From contig CAIMVG010000006.1 of the NCBI GenBank assembly GCA_903844845.1, positions 1 through 64,000 on the forward strand: DNA of 64,000 bases, written 5' to 3'. The position numbers and the translations under genes are program-made. Source of the DNA: an uncultured Dehalococcoidia bacterium (GTDB lineage: Bacteria > Chloroflexota > Dehalococcoidia > Dehalococcoidales > UBA1222). Under the pieces are notes generated by a model. That model did not search any database. It saw only the letters and a program-made list of their open reading frames with translations, and was not told the DNA's origin. Positions within the stretch are counted from its first letter, which is position 1. Each line of letters starts with the position of its first letter. Positions 9,517 to 27,051 of the stretch are shown here, one piece after another.

Positions 9517-9984
9517 ATGGCAAAAATATTCGAAGGGAACCTTAAAGGCGACGGCCTCAAATTCGCTATTGTTATCTCCCGTTTCAATGAATTCATCGGT
9601 GGCAAACTGCTCGAAGGGGCAAAAGACGCGCTGGTCCGTCATGGCGTGGGGGTTGAAGACGTCGATGTCGCATGGACGCCGGGGGCTTTTGAAATACCTC
9701 TGATAGCCCTCAAAATGGCCCAGACGAGGCGATACAACGGGATTATATGTCTCGGTGCTGTGATACGAGGAGGAACGCCACATTTCGAATATGTAGCGTC
9801 AGAATTGAACAAGGGCATTGCCCAGGTCATTTTGATGACAGGGCTGCCGGTTTCTAACGGAGTGATCACTGCCGACACGCTTGAACAGGCAATTGAACGC
9901 GCCGGAACCAAAATGGGAAACAAGGGTTTTGACGCTGCCGTCAGCTCGGTTGAAATGGCCAACCTGATGAAAAACGTCATCTAA
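9517..9984 (+). CDS. ribH: 6,7-dimethyl-8-ribityllumazine synthase
   Basis: Condenses the pyrimidine with dihydroxybutanone phosphate to lumazine, the substrate of RibE. Family motifs are SRFNEFI near residue 20, PGAFEIPL near 55, [14 protein letters not shown] near 85 and the C-terminal [18 protein letters not shown] strong AAGGAGG ribosome site precedes the ATG. At 155 aa it is normal. It is the last gene of the riboflavin operon, and a terminator hairpin lies 55 bases downstream. Confidence 0.96.
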
Positions 9985-10038
9985 TAAATGGTGCGTCCAT
10001 GGTTTGGGTCAGGGACGCTAGTAATCGCAAATTATTTA

Positions 10039-10090
10039 AACCGGGTGCACTGCCCTCTTTCAGTTGGGGTGGAGTGCTCCCGGTTCGTTT
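10039..10090 (+). terminator. Terminator of the riboflavin operon
   Basis: AACCGGG and TGCACT-containing arms pair with GGAGTGCTCCCGGTT, with a loop around TCTTTCAGTT, and are followed by CGTTTTT. The stem is imperfect but long. Confidence 0.75.
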
Positions 10091-10130
10091 TTCAAAGAAT
10101 ATTTCGTGGGACTTTTATTCTTTCGTTACT

Positions 10131-10160
10131 TTGACACCAACGAACACGCTCCCATATAAT
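10131..10160 (+). promoter_or_regulatory. Strong promoter of the small protein / bioY unit
   Basis: A consensus TTGACA (10131-10136) and TATAAT (10155-10160) are 18 bases apart. The first gene starts at 10189 behind a GAAGGGGG ribosome site, so this transcript has a leader of about 20 bases. Confidence 0.85.
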
Positions 10161-10188
10161 GTGGCTATATTTGTTGAAGGGGGCCAAC

Positions 10189-10410
10189 ATGGCGAAAAAT
10201 ATCCGCGGATCGGAAGACACCCCCCCTACCCTTGATAATTTGAGACAGCGTCTCGATATGTTCGATCAACGCATCGATAATATCGATTCCATGGTTTCCG
10301 CCGTCATCGAACGGGTCATGAGCCAAGCCTTGACTGTTCAAACGGTGTGTCCTCATTGCGGGCACAATATCGAAATAGCCCTGATTGGCGTTAAAAAACC
10401 GAGAGGCTAA
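10189..10410 (+). CDS. Small hypothetical protein with one Cys pair
   Basis: Not recognised. The 73-residue product has a charged N-terminal segment, a predicted helix (residues about 14-48, heptad-like DNLRQRLDMFDQRIDNID), then a single CPHCGH element near residue 56 resembling half of a zinc ribbon. It could dimerise through the helix and share a metal, but that is inference. An ATG at 10159 in the same frame overlaps the -10 box and cannot be the start; ATG 10189 has a good ribosome site. bioY follows 24 bases later, so the two are probably co-transcribed from the consensus promoter upstream. Confidence 0.75.
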   Translation: MAKNIRGSEDTPPTLDNLRQRLDMFDQRIDNIDSMVSAVIERVMSQALTVQTVCPHCGHNIEIALIGVKKPRG

Positions 10411-10434
10411 TAATATCTCGTCAAGGATAGGTTT

Positions 10435-11043
10435 ATGCAGATTTCCGTCGCGTTAAATCAGACCAAACTCGAAGCGTTCCGCTGGCGGGAGCAAGCCAGA
10501 CTGCCATCGAAAATAACTATGGCAGCCTTGATGGCCGCCGTCGTAGGACTGTTAGCTCAGGTCAAGGTTCCACTTCCATTTACGCCTGTTCCTATCACAG
10601 GTCAAACTTTTGGTGTACTTCTGGCTGGGGTTTTGCTGGGTAAAAAATGGGGTGGGGTGAGCCTTGGAATTTACGCAGTGTTAGGTATAGTCGGGCTGCC
10701 GTGGTTCAACGGTTCAACAAGCGGATTGACCGCCACCGCCGGTTATCTCGTCGGCTTTGTTCTGGCCTCCCTTTTTCTTGGTTATTTCATCGATAAATTG
10801 CCCGATAAAAACAATTTTAACCGCATGTTCGGGCTTATGTTATTTGCCGCCGTTATAATTGTTTACGTTCCCGGGTTGCTGTGGCTGGGTCTCTGGTTGA
10901 ATCTGGTAAAAGGGACACCCGCCGATGTTCTATCGATTTTAAGCCTCGGGGCGGTGCCTTTTATCGCTGGAGATATCCTTAAGACCGGATTGGCCGCTGT
11001 GGTTGCAGTAAAGATTCTTCCCCGAAAGTCCTCGGCGAAATAA
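10435..11043 (+). CDS. bioY: Biotin transporter substrate-binding component BioY
   Basis: S-component of an energy-coupling-factor transporter that binds biotin in the membrane. It has about six hydrophobic segments in 202 aa and the BioY signature around residues 45-70 (PLPFTPVPITGQTFGVLLAG). A charged cytoplasmic N-terminus of ~25 residues is somewhat long. No ECF ATPase or T-component lies nearby, so it either shares the global energising module or works alone, as some BioY proteins do. AAGGAT precedes the ATG. No biotin operator (BirA box) was recognised. Confidence 0.93.
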   Translation: MQISVALNQTKLEAFRWREQARLPSKITMAALMAAVVGLLAQVKVPLPFTPVPITGQTFGVLLAGVLLGKKWGGVSLGIYAVLGIVGLPWFNGSTSGLTATAGYLVGFVLASLFLGYFIDKLPDKNNFNRMFGLMLFAAVIIVYVPGLLWLGLWLNLVKGTPADVLSILSLGAVPFIAGDILKTGLAAVVAVKILPRKSSAK

Positions 11044-20775: not shown

Positions 20776-21435
20776 GGTAATCATGAGGAGACGGTGTGGA
20801 TTGCTTCAAAGAAGGGAATCGGGAATCTGTAGAAGTCGCAAGGATTCGTCTGCTGACGATTCTTTAAAAGTGACTCACCCAAGTGAGTCATTCTAGGAGA
20901 GTAGCGCCGAATTGTTATCAATCTTAGACAAAAAAATAGCATTTTGTACTTCATGGCCCTCGTCAGTTGTCGTTCTTTTATTCTTAATCTGTGTGTTATG
21001 TTAAGCTTCCTTAGCCCCAATATAGCAATACGACATAATATATATTGTGCGAACCAAGAAAAAGGCCTCGTAAAAATGAAGATTAACATAACGGGGGAAG
21101 CAAAATAGATCAAAGTCGATTGTCCTCACGAAAACATTGAGATTGATTTAGATATTGCTATTTAGATATTGCTATTTAGATATTGCTAAGTGAAGATTCT
21201 CATTGCTGAGTGAAAGAAAGTTATTAAATCGAATTACTTCCGTATTGACCGGGCGGATGGCATGGTATTTGTAGAAGGAAGGAGTTTACGAATTACGTCA
21301 AATTCTTGGCGATACAAAAAGGTACCATCACCTGAATTTGGATTATTTCTTTCCGAACCAGATCAACTGCCCCAAAATGGCCAGAGGAAAGAACATTTAC
21401 CCCCGCTCAAGATGCCTCGAACCGCTGGATTTGGA
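20776..21435. other. Gene-poor, AT-rich interval between convergent aroF and hflX
   Basis: No convincing gene. It contains a perfect 8-base palindromic hairpin TGACTCAC-CCAA-GTGAGTCA (20871-20890), a three-copy tandem repeat (21147-21188), and a short frame from an ATG near 21076 (KINITGEAK, stop, IKVDCPHENIEIDLDIA) that looks like protein interrupted by a TAG. This may be decayed coding DNA; I could not identify a parent family. Confidence 0.5.
21147..21188 (+). repeat. 14-base tandem repeat, three perfect copies
   Basis: TTTAGATATTGCTA occurs at 21147, 21161 and 21175 without a mismatch. The unit is not a multiple of three, so it would shift any reading frame running through it. Confidence 0.97.
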
Positions 21436-22620
21436 CTACAGAGGCTCGTTTTGAGAGGACTGCAAAAGACTGGGCGCCGTCTGCTCATCTATCACCCGGT
21501 TGAGTACTTCCAGCATTTTCTTTAAGCCCCACTTTTTTCCGGCGGAAATAAGGACAGTGTTGGGATTGTCCCCAGCAAGATGATTAAGAAAACCCAGGGC
21601 CCTGACTTCATCCCATTGCTCGTTCTTGTCCAAGAGCAGGTCGATTTTGTTCAACGCTGTTACACGCGGTTTATTTTCCAACCCGAGGTCTTTCAATATA
21701 TTATCAACGACCTGACTTTGCTCTGCGGCATTATGTGAAGTTAAATCAACGATGTGAAGAAGCGCCGTCGCTTCGGAAATTTCCTCAAGAGTGGCCCTGA
21801 ATGCGTCGACGACGTCGGTCGGGAGTTTCCGGATGAAGCCAACCGTGTCGGTCAGTAACACCGTTTTCAGGTCCGGCAGAGTAAGTCGTTTAGTGGTCGG
21901 ATCCAGGGTGGCGAAAAGTTTGTTCTCCGCCAGCACGTTCGCCTGGCTAAGCGCGTTCAACAGTGTGCTTTTCCCGGTATTGGTGTAACCCACGATCGCG
22001 ACGATGGGGATACCGCTGCGCCGGCGGTTCTCTCTGTAAAGCATCCGGTGTTTGCGCACCTCCTCCAGTTCTTTTTTTAGTTTGCTGATTTTGTTGCGAA
22101 TCAGGCGCTTGTCAGTTTCCAGTTGGGATTCTCCCGGCCCGCGGGTTCCGATGCCGCCCCCCAGCCGTTCGAGGTGGCTCCATTGTCCGGCAAGCCGCGG
22201 CAAAAGGTACTGGTGTTGCGCCATTTCAACCTGCAATTTGCCTTCATGAGTACGGGCATGGCGGGCGAAGATGTCCAGTATCAAAGCCACGCGGTCGATG
22301 ATTTTTATCTTGAGAAGTTCTTCAAGCGTATTCTGCTGCCGCGGGGTCAGTTCATCATCGAAGATGATCAGGTCCCAATCGGAGTTCTGCCTTTTTAAAA
22401 TCAGTTCGTCCAGTTTGCCTTTGCCGAGGTAAGTCGATCCATGAGGCTGGTTGAGTTTCTGAATCATCCTCCCGGCAACCTGGGAGCCCGCCGTCCGGGT
22501 CAGCTGGGCTAGTTCCTCCAGCGATTCTTCCCCGGTCCAGCCGTCTCTTTTGCCGGTGTCGACACCTACCAGGAAAGCTTTTTCCTGGGTTTTCTTGGTT
22601 GAATAGGTCGTTTTAGAAAT
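21436..22620 (-). CDS. hflX: GTPase HflX (ATT start)
   Basis: Ribosome-associated GTPase that splits stalled ribosomes. The HflX N-terminal domain is recognisable from the extension STKKTQEKAFLVGVD through GSTYLGKGKLDEL; the coiled linker RNKISKLKKELEEVRKHR precedes the G domain with G1 GYTNTGKSTLLN, G3 DTVGF and G4 NKID. Starting at the first ATG (22467) would remove about 50 residues of that domain. No ATG, GTG or TTG lies upstream in frame, but ATT at 22618-22620 follows GAGGT by 6 bases in the gap after dapL. The resulting 394 aa fit the family better. Last gene of miaA-dapF-dapL-hflX. Confidence 0.9.
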   Translation of the reverse strand: MSKTTYSTKKTQEKAFLVGVDTGKRDGWTGEESLEELAQLTRTAGSQVAGRMIQKLNQPHGSTYLGKGKLDELILKRQNSDWDLIIFDDELTPRQQNTLEELLKIKIIDRVALILDIFARHARTHEGKLQVEMAQHQYLLPRLAGQWSHLERLGGGIGTRGPGESQLETDKRLIRNKISKLKKELEEVRKHRMLYRENRRRSGIPIVAIVGYTNTGKSTLLNALSQANVLAENKLFATLDPTTKRLTLPDLKTVLLTDTVGFIRKLPTDVVDAFRATLEEISEATALLHIVDLTSHNAAEQSQVVDNILKDLGLENKPRVTALNKIDLLLDKNEQWDEVRALGFLNHLAGDNPNTVLISAGKKWGLKKMLEVLNRVIDEQTAPSLLQSSQNEPL

Positions 22621-22637
22621 CGCGGTACCTCGATTTG

Positions 22638-23825
22638 TTAATGTTTTGATTTGAACCGGTTATGGCTATCCTGCCATGCCGAAAGCTTTGACAAAGCCTT
22701 TACCAGTGCGGCGTCCGGAAGTGTCAGCGAAAGCCGGACAAATCCCTCTCCGCTGGGGCCATACCCTGTCCCGGGTATAACCAGAACACCCACCTGTTCC
22801 AGAAGGCTTGCAGAGAATTCCATGGAGGTGAAGCCCGGGGGGATTTTCGCCCAGACATAAAGGCTGGCTTTTGGGGCGGCAGCGATACAGCCGATATCGT
22901 TCAAAACGTCGACGACCAGGTCGCGGCGCCGCTGATAGATGTTGTTGTGCTGGGCGATAACTTCCTGCGGTCCGTTCAGGGCTTCGATCGCCATGTACTG
23001 GATGGCCTGCGGTATGCCGGAGTCCAGGTTGGATTTGACCCTCTTCAGGGCGTCTATCATGCCGGCGTTGCCTACAGCCATACCGATACGCCAACCAGTC
23101 ATATTGTAACTTTTAGACAGCGAATGAAATTCGATGCCGACCTCGCGGGCGCCTTCGGCTTGGAGGTAGCTGACGGGTTTATATCCGTCGTAGGCCACTT
23201 CTGTGTAGGGGCCATCATGGCAGATGGCTAGGTTGTTTTGTCTGGCGAATTCGACAGCGCGGTTGAAGAATTCGAGTTCAGCAACTGCCCCGGTCGGGTT
23301 GTTAGGGTAATTGAGCCAGAGAACTTTTGCCCTGCTTAAAATCTCCTGTGGGATGGAGCCCAGGTCCGGAATGAAGCGGTTAGCCTCGGTAAGGGGCAGG
23401 TAATAAGGCTCCCCTCCCGCGAGTTTGCTGCTGATGGCGTAGACAGGGTAGGCCGGGTCGGGCACCAGTGCAACATCTCCCTGGTCGAGAAAGCAAAACG
23501 CTGCATGACCGATGCCTTCTTTGGAACCTATAAGGGGAAGGACCTCGCTGTTGGGGTCGAGGGTCACTTCGAACCGCCGCTTGTACCAGGCAGCCATGGC
23601 CTGGCGCAGTGCCGGCAGTCCGTCGGTTTCGGGGTATCTGTGATTGGCCGGGTCGCGGGCCGCTTCGCAGAGCTTTTCGATGATATTGGGGGGGGTGGGG
23701 ATGTCGGGGTCGCCGATGCCGAAACTGATAACTTCTTCTCCGCGGGCCCTTTTTTCGGCGATCTTTTTGTTTATCTCCACAAATAGATACGGCGCAAGCT
23801 GGTCCATGCGCTGTGAAAGTTTCAT
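22638..23825 (-). CDS. dapL: LL-diaminopimelate aminotransferase
   Basis: PLP enzyme that makes LL-diaminopimelate from tetrahydrodipicolinate in one step, bypassing succinyl or acetyl intermediates. Fold-type I motifs are visible: GIGDPDIPTP near residue 37, YPNNPTGA near 170 and SLSKSYNMTGWRIG near 233 with the PLP lysine. Length is 395 aa. The neighbouring dapF supports the lysine/peptidoglycan role and the DapL assignment over another class I aminotransferase. It lies 36 bases after dapF and 17 before hflX. Confidence 0.88.
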   Translation of the reverse strand: MKLSQRMDQLAPYLFVEINKKIAEKRARGEEVISFGIGDPDIPTPPNIIEKLCEAARDPANHRYPETDGLPALRQAMAAWYKRRFEVTLDPNSEVLPLIGSKEGIGHAAFCFLDQGDVALVPDPAYPVYAISSKLAGGEPYYLPLTEANRFIPDLGSIPQEILSRAKVLWLNYPNNPTGAVAELEFFNRAVEFARQNNLAICHDGPYTEVAYDGYKPVSYLQAEGAREVGIEFHSLSKSYNMTGWRIGMAVGNAGMIDALKRVKSNLDSGIPQAIQYMAIEALNGPQEVIAQHNNIYQRRRDLVVDVLNDIGCIAAAPKASLYVWAKIPPGFTSMEFSASLLEQVGVLVIPGTGYGPSGEGFVRLSLTLPDAALVKALSKLSAWQDSHNRFKSKH

Positions 23826-23861
23826 GATTTACTCCTCATAATTTTATTATTAAAAAATCTG

Positions 23862-24710
23862 CTATTCAGGCCATTCTCCCGTGAACACCATTTCAGCCGG
23901 GCCCGTGAGGAAAGCCTCTTCTTTCTTGTTCCACTTCACTTCAGCCATCCCGCCCGAAAGTAAAATCTCGACTTTGGGGTCGCAGAGCCCGTGCAGCTGT
24001 GCCGCTATCGCCACGGCGCACGCGCCGCTTCCGCAAGCAAGTGTTTCACCTGCTCCGCGTTCCCAAACACGCATCTCGATCCTGTTGCGGCTGAGGACGC
24101 GGGCGACTTCGAAATTCACCCCGTGAGGGAACAGCTTGTATTTTTCTACTGATGGTCCGATGTTCTTTAAAGCAAAATCGGCGACCGGTTCATCGATAAA
24201 GCAGACGGCATGCGGGTTGCCCATAGAGATAAAGTTGAGGAGGAGTTTTTTCCCTGCCATCTCCAGCGGATAATCTCCAGTCATTATGTCAAATAGTTTA
24301 CCTTTGCCGGCTTCGACGGCAACAGGGATGTTTTTGGGATTGAATTCAGGTTTGCCCATCCCGACCTGGATCAAGGAACGTGTCCCGTCCTGGATAAGGC
24401 GGGCATCGCGGACCCCGGCCATCGTTTCGATCGCGTAATTGTCGCCGTGCACCAATCCTTTAACGACGAGGTATCTGGTGAAACAGCGGAGGCCATTCCC
24501 GCAAGCTTCGGCCTCAGAGCCGTCGGGGTTAAAAACACGCATCCTGAAATCGGCGATTTCTGAATTCAACAGTATCAGCAGCCCGTCGGCACCGACGCCG
24601 AAGTGCGGCTGGCATATGCTCTTAGCCATCCGGGACCAGTCGCGGTCTTTCCCGATGGCATCGACCATAACGAAATCATTTCCCAGACCTTGAAGTTTTG
24701 TAAATTGCAT
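23862..24710 (-). CDS. dapF: Diaminopimelate epimerase
   Basis: Converts LL- to meso-diaminopimelate for lysine and cell wall synthesis. It uses a two-cysteine mechanism, and both sites are present: EACGNGLRCF near residue 74 and LACGSGACAVA near 223. FTKLQGLGNDFVMVD at the N-terminus is typical. Length 282 aa is normal. It starts 9 bases after miaA, so the pairing of tRNA modification and lysine genes is operonic. Confidence 0.95.
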   Translation of the reverse strand: MQFTKLQGLGNDFVMVDAIGKDRDWSRMAKSICQPHFGVGADGLLILLNSEIADFRMRVFNPDGSEAEACGNGLRCFTRYLVVKGLVHGDNYAIETMAGVRDARLIQDGTRSLIQVGMGKPEFNPKNIPVAVEAGKGKLFDIMTGDYPLEMAGKKLLLNFISMGNPHAVCFIDEPVADFALKNIGPSVEKYKLFPHGVNFEVARVLSRNRIEMRVWERGAGETLACGSGACAVAIAAQLHGLCDPKVEILLSGGMAEVKWNKKEEAFLTGPAEMVFTGEWPE

Positions 24711-24719
24711 ATATGGACC

Positions 24720-25631
24720 TTACGCTTTCAAAAATCCGGCGACTATTGTTTTAATTGAGGCATACGGTTCCGTGTCTACATCGAACCAATGTATTCTATC
24801 ATCTTTCGGGCTGAACCAGTTATATTGCATACGCACCAAACGGTGGCTTTCATTCTTCACCTGCTGGACGGCCTCTTCCAGGCCGATATTGCCCAGCACG
24901 AAATTCGATATCTGCCGATAACCGATGCCCGACATCGACGGCGCCCCGGCCCCGTAGCCGCGGTTCATGAGCCCCTTGACCTCATCCACCAGCCCCCGTT
25001 CCAGCATGGAGTCGACCCTTTCGTCGATGCGGGTGTAAAGCGTCTCCCGTTTGGCCGTGAGCCCGATGACCAGTTCTTCGAAAGGAGGTTTGATCTTTGC
25101 CGGCCGGGAAGCGAGGGCTGGGTCCCTGTTTACCTCCAGAGCCCTTATCACACGCCGGACATTCCGGCGGTCTATGCGGCCCGCGGAATCCGGGTCCAGA
25201 TTTTTCAATTCTTCGAAGAGATGTTCACCTTCGCCGCGCGCGGCCCTTTCTTCGAGGTGCTTTCTATAAGTTAAATCAGGCACGACCCTTGGTATCTGCC
25301 AGCCTTCGAGCAATGCCCACACGTAAAGCCCGCTTCCTCCTGCGAGGATGGGGATCCTTCCCCTGGCGCTGATCTCATCTATCGTTTTATAGCCGAGTTC
25401 GAGGTACCGGGCCAGGTCAAACGCTTCGTCCGGGTCGATGATGTCGATGAGGTGATGGGGCACCAGGGCTTGTTCCTGGAGCGACGGCTTGGCAGTCCCG
25501 ATGTCCATGTACCGGTATACCTGCCGGCTGTCGGCGGTTACTATCTCGCCGTTCAGGTCCTGTGCCAAACGCAGGGCAAGCGCGCTCTTGCCCACCCCCG
25601 TCGGCCCGACTATCGCCACCACGGATTGCAT
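24720..25631 (-). CDS. miaA: tRNA dimethylallyltransferase
   Basis: Adds a dimethylallyl group to A37 of tRNAs reading UNN codons. Walker A is GPTGVGKS near residue 9, DSRQVYRYMDIGTAKP follows near 35, and GGSGLYVWALLEG near 100. Length 303 aa is normal. The -10 box TATAAT on the minus strand (25638-25643) ends only 6 bases before ATG 25631 and no Shine-Dalgarno site is seen, so the transcript is likely leaderless. Confidence 0.95.
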   Translation of the reverse strand: MQSVVAIVGPTGVGKSALALRLAQDLNGEIVTADSRQVYRYMDIGTAKPSLQEQALVPHHLIDIIDPDEAFDLARYLELGYKTIDEISARGRIPILAGGSGLYVWALLEGWQIPRVVPDLTYRKHLEERAARGEGEHLFEELKNLDPDSAGRIDRRNVRRVIRALEVNRDPALASRPAKIKPPFEELVIGLTAKRETLYTRIDERVDSMLERGLVDEVKGLMNRGYGAGAPSMSGIGYRQISNFVLGNIGLEEAVQQVKNESHRLVRMQYNWFSPKDDRIHWFDVDTEPYASIKTIVAGFLKA

Positions 25632-25643: not shown

Positions 25644-25985
25644 TAGGAAAAGGCGGCTATTATTTTAGGCCCGGGCGGCCGGGGGGACTGGTTATGTCAA
25701 AACAAATAGACGAAATTTATAAGTAGATTTACGATTGGGAAACCAGAAAAAGGTCAAATTTTATGTCATCTGAAAGTATATTTGTTCAATCATCGTCTCA
25801 GGCTGTAAATAACCAAACCCAGGGTTAAAACGCTCATGCATTCCGGCCGGAAACGTTCAAAATATGGCCGAAGGTATCCTGTTCCGCCTGAGGGTTGAAG
25901 GATACACTTGTTCCATTTTAAGGATGCTATTACTCCAAAGAGCGAGATATCGCTTGATGGTTAAATCAAGGAAAGTGAGAACGAC
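25644..25985. promoter_or_regulatory. Archaellin upstream region with inverted repeats
   Basis: No gene is supported. A 12-base palindrome TTCCGGCCGGAA lies at 25841-25852, and GTATCCT (25874-25880) pairs with AGGATAC (25899-25905) across an 18-base loop. Either could be an operator or an RNA element of the archaellin gene. AAGGAAAGTGAGA at about 25969-25981 supplies a ribosome site. Confidence 0.4.
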
Positions 25986-26600
25986 ATGTACGATAGATTC
26001 TGTTACGCAATCAAGAACCTGCGCAGAGGCCAAAAAGGCATCACCGGCCTGGAAACCGCCATCATCTTGATAGCGTTCGTAACCGTGGCCTCGGTGCTTG
26101 CCTACAGTGTTCTCTCGGCGGGGATATATTCGGCGGACAAAGGCAAGGCGGCGGTATATAACGGACTCGAGAGCGTCAGGAACACCATGGTCGTCAAAGG
26201 CACGGTGCTCGGCCTTGCCGGAGGCGGCGGGACTGCACTCACGAGTGTTATTTTTAACATGGCGATGGCCACAAACGGGGATTCTATCGATCTGACTAAA
26301 CTCGCTATCAATTATTGGGATTCAGACATCGTTGAACCTCTGGCGTTGGACGCGGCCAATTCCGGCGATCCCTCCAAATCGACGGTCACCCCCGGAGACT
26401 GGTCGTATTATTTAAGCGACGGGAGCGCCGGTTCGGCCCTGAAGGACAACCTGGCGGTATACATCGTGGTAGCTGTGCCCGCCGGCGCGGCCGCATTCTC
26501 GTACGCCACCATCACTATACAGGTGATTCCGCCCGGGGCTTCGGCGGTCACCATTCAGCGCACGCTTCCGCCGATCTCGGCCGCGATGGCGCTGGCTTAA
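25986..26600 (+). CDS. Archaeal-type flagellin (archaellin) or class III pilin-like protein
   Basis: A 204-aa surface-filament subunit. The N-terminus carries a class III signal peptide: a basic stretch (LRRGQKG) cut before ITGLETAIILIAFVTVASV, the long hydrophobic helix that forms the filament core in archaellins. The remaining part is a beta-rich, small-residue domain ending in TITIQVIPPGASAVTIQRTLP, like the archaellin C-terminal strand region. Usual length is 190-230 aa. No ArlI/ArlJ motor, FlaK-like peptidase or other arl gene lies in the window. A terminator follows at 26664, so it is transcribed alone. A related bacterial type IV pilin is possible but the motif favours archaellin. Confidence 0.8.
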   Translation: MYDRFCYAIKNLRRGQKGITGLETAIILIAFVTVASVLAYSVLSAGIYSADKGKAAVYNGLESVRNTMVVKGTVLGLAGGGGTALTSVIFNMAMATNGDSIDLTKLAINYWDSDIVEPLALDAANSGDPSKSTVTPGDWSYYLSDGSAGSALKDNLAVYIVVAVPAGAAAFSYATITIQVIPPGASAVTIQRTLPPISAAMALA

Positions 26601-26793: not shown

Positions 26794-26880
26794 GGAGAGG
26801 TGTCCGAGTGGTTCATGGTGCCGCTCTCGAAAAGCGGTTCCCGAGCAATCGGGACGTGGGTTCGAATCCCACCCTCTCCG
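26794..26880 (+). tRNA. tRNA-Ser (CGA)
   Basis: GGAGAGG pairs with CCTCTCC; the anticodon loop CTCGAAA gives CGA and the long variable arm (TTCCCGAGCAATCGGGA) marks a class II tRNA. The 3' end reads GCCG, so CCA is not encoded. Confidence 0.95.
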
Positions 26881-26961
26881 CCGCGTTCCTTGGTAAGGGC
26901 CTTTCCCGAACTGAGATTAGAATCTTGTCTCTTGATGGTATATAATTAAGCGTTCTGCCGC

Positions 26962-27051
<90 letters not shown>

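Follow-up and report, generated by a model that had tools for sequence, protein, structure and literature searches.

The window analyzed here, a 64,000-nucleotide stretch of the genome of an uncultured Dehalococcoidales bacterium, carries at positions 25986-26600 (+) a 204-amino-acid open reading frame (protein start MYDRFCYAIKNLRRGQKGITGLETAIILIAFV) that the initial annotation took for an archaellin-like gene, and the question it raises is which filament such a gene might serve in a bacterial chromosome. Archaella have been published from Chloroflexota with both structure and swimming (PMC12488501), as the initial annotation stated, and the protein itself bears out the proposed identity. It matches the curated Arch_flagellin family (PF01917) with an E-value of 8.5e-15 and 55.9 bits, above the family cut-off of 29.5; this is the sole Pfam family found for the open reading frame at E<=1, and a match to TIGR02537 falls just at the cut-off of that model. 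The class III signal (RRGQKG) described earlier is present as well: residues 13-32 read RRGQKG followed by ITGLETAIILIAFV, placing a [K/R]G pair ahead of a hydrophobic helix (QKG/ITGLETA), with G18 invariant in 38 relatives. The mature Litorilinea aerophila archaellin (PDB chain 9i5h_C) starts ITALETAIILIAFV, and alignment puts that start at residue 19 of the window protein; cleavage is accordingly predicted before Ile19, releasing the signal peptide MYDRFCYAIKNLRRGQKG encoded at 25986-26039 (+). The sequence is further suggestive of a possible ribosome-binding site (AAGGAAAGTGAG; 25968-25979, +), and a search for a promoter upstream of the gene found none.

The initial annotation had noted a small-residue beta-rich domain and proposed a structural comparison with archaellins and type IV pilins. 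An AlphaFold2 model built on 38 homologues (mean pLDDT 88.6) indeed consists of a single long N-terminal helix (residues 21-65) and an all-beta C-terminal domain. The filament-core helix, conserved in the 38 relatives, corresponds to residues 19-65 (26040-26180, +) and the beta-sandwich domain to residues 68-203 (26187-26594, +). Among solved chains, 9i5h_C of the L. aerophila bacterial archaellum comes closest in sequence (5.6e-21), and the same structure leads the Foldseek search of the PDB (9.5e-13); the top 17 matches are archaellins, and those following at E<=0.001 are ArlF/ArlG. Because class III signal peptides are common to pilins and archaellins, the protein could be a type IV pilin of a bacterial pilus. 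This is very improbable, since no bacterial type IV pilin appears among the Foldseek PDB matches at E<=0.001 and no pilin family in Pfam at E<=1, and the helix-plus-beta-sandwich fold lies nearer archaellins than pilins.

Archaellins being mainly archaeal, the gene might alternatively reflect archaeal DNA misbinned into a bacterial genome. We give this practically no credence: the nearest archaellins come from Dehalococcoidales, and the adjoining stretch of the window (21424-25616) aligns with a genome of the same genus, G001, at 74% DNA identity. The aligned stretch ends 370 bases before the archaellin gene. It spans dapF to miaA and stops at the miaA start, where tpiA comes next in G001, which places the archaellin gene at a rearrangement breakpoint. 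No archaellin was found in G001, and with a breakpoint at that very place neither an insertion scar nor an empty site can be read there.

The local surroundings were as the initial annotation described. The gene stands alone between the divergent miaA (IPP transferase; 24720-25631, -; PF01715, 5.3e-74) and two tRNA genes, tRNA-Ser(CGA) at 26794-26882 (+) and tRNA-Ser(GGA) at 26962-27051 (+), all three outside the archaellum system and of no evident meaning for it. A tRNA neighbourhood as a rule was rejected, as stand-alone archaellins elsewhere adjoin other genes and are not at the same locus. Upstream lie two inverted repeats with 6-bp arms (25841-25852 and 25953-25970); as 69 of 300 shuffles matched or exceeded this count, they are no more than expected by chance. 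Their role as regulatory sites was likewise rejected, the folding of the leader being mildly unusual at most (z -2.2). The tRNA/miaA setting and the weak repeats thus look incidental. Two further observations concern this neighbourhood. A T-box leader (RF00230; 27114-27371, +; 88.5 bits, E 5.3e-20, just below the gathering score of 93) lies between tRNA-Ser(GGA) and a trpB-like gene. In another family of the order, four stand-alone archaellins (L082, L083, L088 and L089) lie a few kilobases from a tRNA-Ser(GCT).

While isolated in the window, the gene has a paralogue in the genome (29 contigs totalling 1.91 Mb, 97.9% complete): another contig, C5, carries an operon archaellin (arlB) at 9948-10511, which makes the window gene a second copy. 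The two archaellins share 47% identity, with near-identical first 60 residues. The operon copy is followed in order by a C/E-like open reading frame, ArlG-like, ArlF-like, ArlH, ArlI, a second ArlI, ArlJ and a proline-rich protein. ArlH exceeds the cut-off of NF004723 and both ArlI proteins that of NF058587 (617 and 621 bits; cut-off 550); ArlJ is the best match at 396 bits, under its equivalog cut-off; and the C/E-like frame, which has no database match, owes its label to its position and its conservation at the same place in relatives. The arl operon on C5 (arlB, C/E-like, G, F, H, two arlI and arlJ) is complete. The initial annotation would have given up the archaellin assignment for a genome devoid of arl motor genes and a protein better matched by type IV pilins; its proposed search for arlI, arlJ and arlH instead located all three on C5, arlI twice, and no type IV pilin was matched by fold at E<=0.001. 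A chemotaxis operon on the opposite strand faces the arl operon. We note in passing that the proline-rich protein (L005:3091-3945, +), encoded directly after arlJ, has one likely membrane helix and no database match, and that a short stretch similar to it is also found 3' of arlJ in G088 and G089.

Homology, fold, an operon with motor and stator genes and the adjoining chemotaxis operon together suggest that the product of the window gene is most probably an archaellin serving as second filament subunit in an archaellum inherited from archaea via Chloroflexota ancestors. Along this line, we infer that the window archaellin would be expressed, processed and co-polymerised, and that the resulting filament would rotate. 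Its relatives are consistent with this reading. The window archaellin has matches in 32 of the 156 genomes of the order, its own included (one of these matches, in G054, covers just 34 residues), and further archaellins without a nearby arl gene, within the kilobases examined and with some of the contigs short, occur for instance at L077, L081, L082, L086, L088 and L089. A phylogenetic tree places the window gene among Dehalococcoidales archaellins, grouped with the operon copies of its own genome and of G083 (99/76). A recent duplication from the operon copy was rejected, because that copy pairs, with moderate support, with the G083 archaellin to the exclusion of the window gene.

Within this preferred reading, the gene could encode a minor or condition-specific subunit, hook-like or part of an alternative filament, that has been separately controlled since leaving the operon. 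We hold this sub-case to be a real possibility, though rather short of an even chance. Such a role is suggested by its separate transcription unit, its long branch in the tree (0.75) and the recurrence of stand-alone archaellin copies in the order; in archaea, minor archaellins and filaments made of two archaellins have been described (PMC8821640, PMC7349177). No sequence feature, however, separates a minor from a major subunit, and the acidic residues replaced in the beta-sandwich domain are lost in both archaellins of the genome alike. Among 38 sequences, the acid at alignment position 156 is missing only in these two proteins, and column counts indicate that the acid at position 153 is also missing in both. 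The archaellin of L. aerophila binds metal through D121, D127, E131 and E134 (PMC12488501), and we read the changes at 153 and 156 as the loss of an L. aerophila-type metal site (E131/E134-type ligands), the correspondence being drawn by alignment, not by structure.

The search for a preflagellin peptidase, which the initial annotation had also proposed, came out negative: neither PF01478 nor PF06847 found a peptidase at E<=0.001 in the 97.9% complete genome. The only PF01478 match at E<=10, a weak and unrelated one on contig C2, was rejected as a peptidase candidate because it lies among NADH dehydrogenase-type open reading frames. PF01478 matches 90 of the 156 genomes of the order, including that of the sister species G001, where pilD and a pilin gene are flanked by a pilM-like gene on one side and a 743-aa open reading frame on the other (locus L122). 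At the syntenic place in the window genome (C18:38586-43804; L072), a pilM-like gene and a homologue of the 743-aa frame enclose a T2SSE-family (PilT-like) gene instead, and neither pilD nor the pilin gene was detected; since the stretch is inside the contig, the absence of pilD there is not an assembly gap. The archaellum may then be a relic, no longer assembled after the loss of its prepilin peptidase, as the negative searches with two families and the disappearance of pilD from its G001 place would suggest. We nevertheless consider this unlikely. The arl operon is intact, ATPase motifs persist in both ArlI proteins and no frame breaks were seen in the open reading frames read; a type IV pilus cluster (PilB, PilC, PilM and a prepilin-like frame), which is also peptidase-dependent, is retained; and the assembly falls short of full completeness (98%), so that a peptidase may be encoded elsewhere, in the missing 2% of the genome.

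A second filament subunit remains our preferred reading, and comparison with known systems indicates how much of it is new. The L. aerophila archaellum (PDB 9i5h, PMC12488501), the best match by both sequence and fold, has in common with the window protein the signal peptide, N-terminal helix and beta-sandwich domain, and its arl2-type arlG-arlF order recurs on C5. The window genome differs from L. aerophila in having one archaellin away from the operon, in lacking the acidic metal ligands and in carrying two copies of the motor ATPase gene, and no peptidase was found in it. Extra archaellin genes away from the operon are also known from SAR202 isolate genomes, in which six flaB copies stand in tandem and six more are scattered (PMC10444878). 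One of these isolates, JH545 ('Ca. Lucifugimonas marina'), belongs to the same class, Dehalococcoidia; it has twelve archaellin copies compared to two in the window genome, and a FlaK candidate where none was found here. Given that Chloroflexota archaella and scattered extra copies have both been published, the window gene is of a known kind: by itself, it adds one more bacterial archaellin and one more dispersed copy. Within its group the gene is ordinary, and its motor system has two features that are apparently undescribed.

The first of these features is a pair of paralogous motor ATPase genes in tandem, encoding ArlI1 and ArlI2 (C5:13075-16566; L004/L005). Two tandem arlI genes were found in at least eight genomes of the order (the window genome, G048, G083, G087, G088, G089, G091 and G093), and a single arlI in G098 and three named Dehalococcoidia contigs. 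First and second copies form two groups in the ArlI tree (89/87 and 96/93), and it is thus likely that all derive from one old duplication. Both ArlI proteins retain the Walker A and Walker B-region residues, and several of the first copies have a GESASGKTS variant. We found no description of tandem arlI genes in the literature searched. The two proteins may form a mixed ring, or may divide assembly and rotation between them.

The second feature concerns the chemotaxis operon on C5, whose last gene (C5:19098-19757; L005:4098-4757, -) encodes a candidate CheY-docking adaptor. Its N-terminus, MSDSMLSQEEVDNLF, contains a FliM-type LSQxEIDxLL-like motif and its C-terminus a zinc ribbon; all eight adaptor sequences aligned have the motif residues L6, Q8 and D12 as well as the four cysteines in common. 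An L-x-Q-x-x-[ILV]-D pattern near the N-terminus was found in 16 of 20 named contigs, counts that are not independent since eight of these contigs apparently duplicate genomes of the order already counted; the motif was not recovered in the other four. In the neighbourhoods covered, the adaptor gene usually lies 3' of cheR and of a gene for an HD-GYP protein; several genomes have it next to the arl operon. Of the 11 genomes in which the adaptor is strongly matched, ten also have archaellum genes (Fisher p = 3.5e-7; 2.9e-5 without the window genome and with G088 counted as negative; both values overstate independence because the genomes are related). The adaptor is missing from about two-thirds of the archaellum genomes, indicating that the archaellum itself does not depend on it, and we think that it goes with the che operon.

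In flagella, the EIDALL motif of FliM/FliY is the docking site of CheY-P, and CheF is restricted to archaea (PMC9126983). CheF is absent from Chloroflexota, and another component may exist (PMC12488501). The LSQxEIDxLL-type start of the last che-operon gene resembles the FliM/FliY docking peptide. Unlike in FliM/FliY, the motif is fused to a linker, a coiled-coil-like stretch and the C-terminal zinc ribbon, and no FliM (PF02154) was found in the window genome. Judging from its sequence, the adaptor is a candidate substitute for the missing CheF and is predicted to dock CheY. Taken with the tandem ATPases, it points to an archaellum that would be a cross-domain hybrid, a reading on which our confidence is evenly divided: an archaeal motor with a duplicated ATPase (ArlI1/ArlI2), steered by a bacterial zinc-ribbon adaptor with a FliM-type motif that would replace CheF. 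How chemotaxis reaches a bacterial archaellum without CheF was stated as an open question in 2025 (PMC12488501), and a conserved che-operon protein bearing a flagellar CheY-binding motif offers a concrete, testable answer to it. If this answer is right, a motility motor derived from archaea would be wired to its sensor through a part borrowed from the flagellum.
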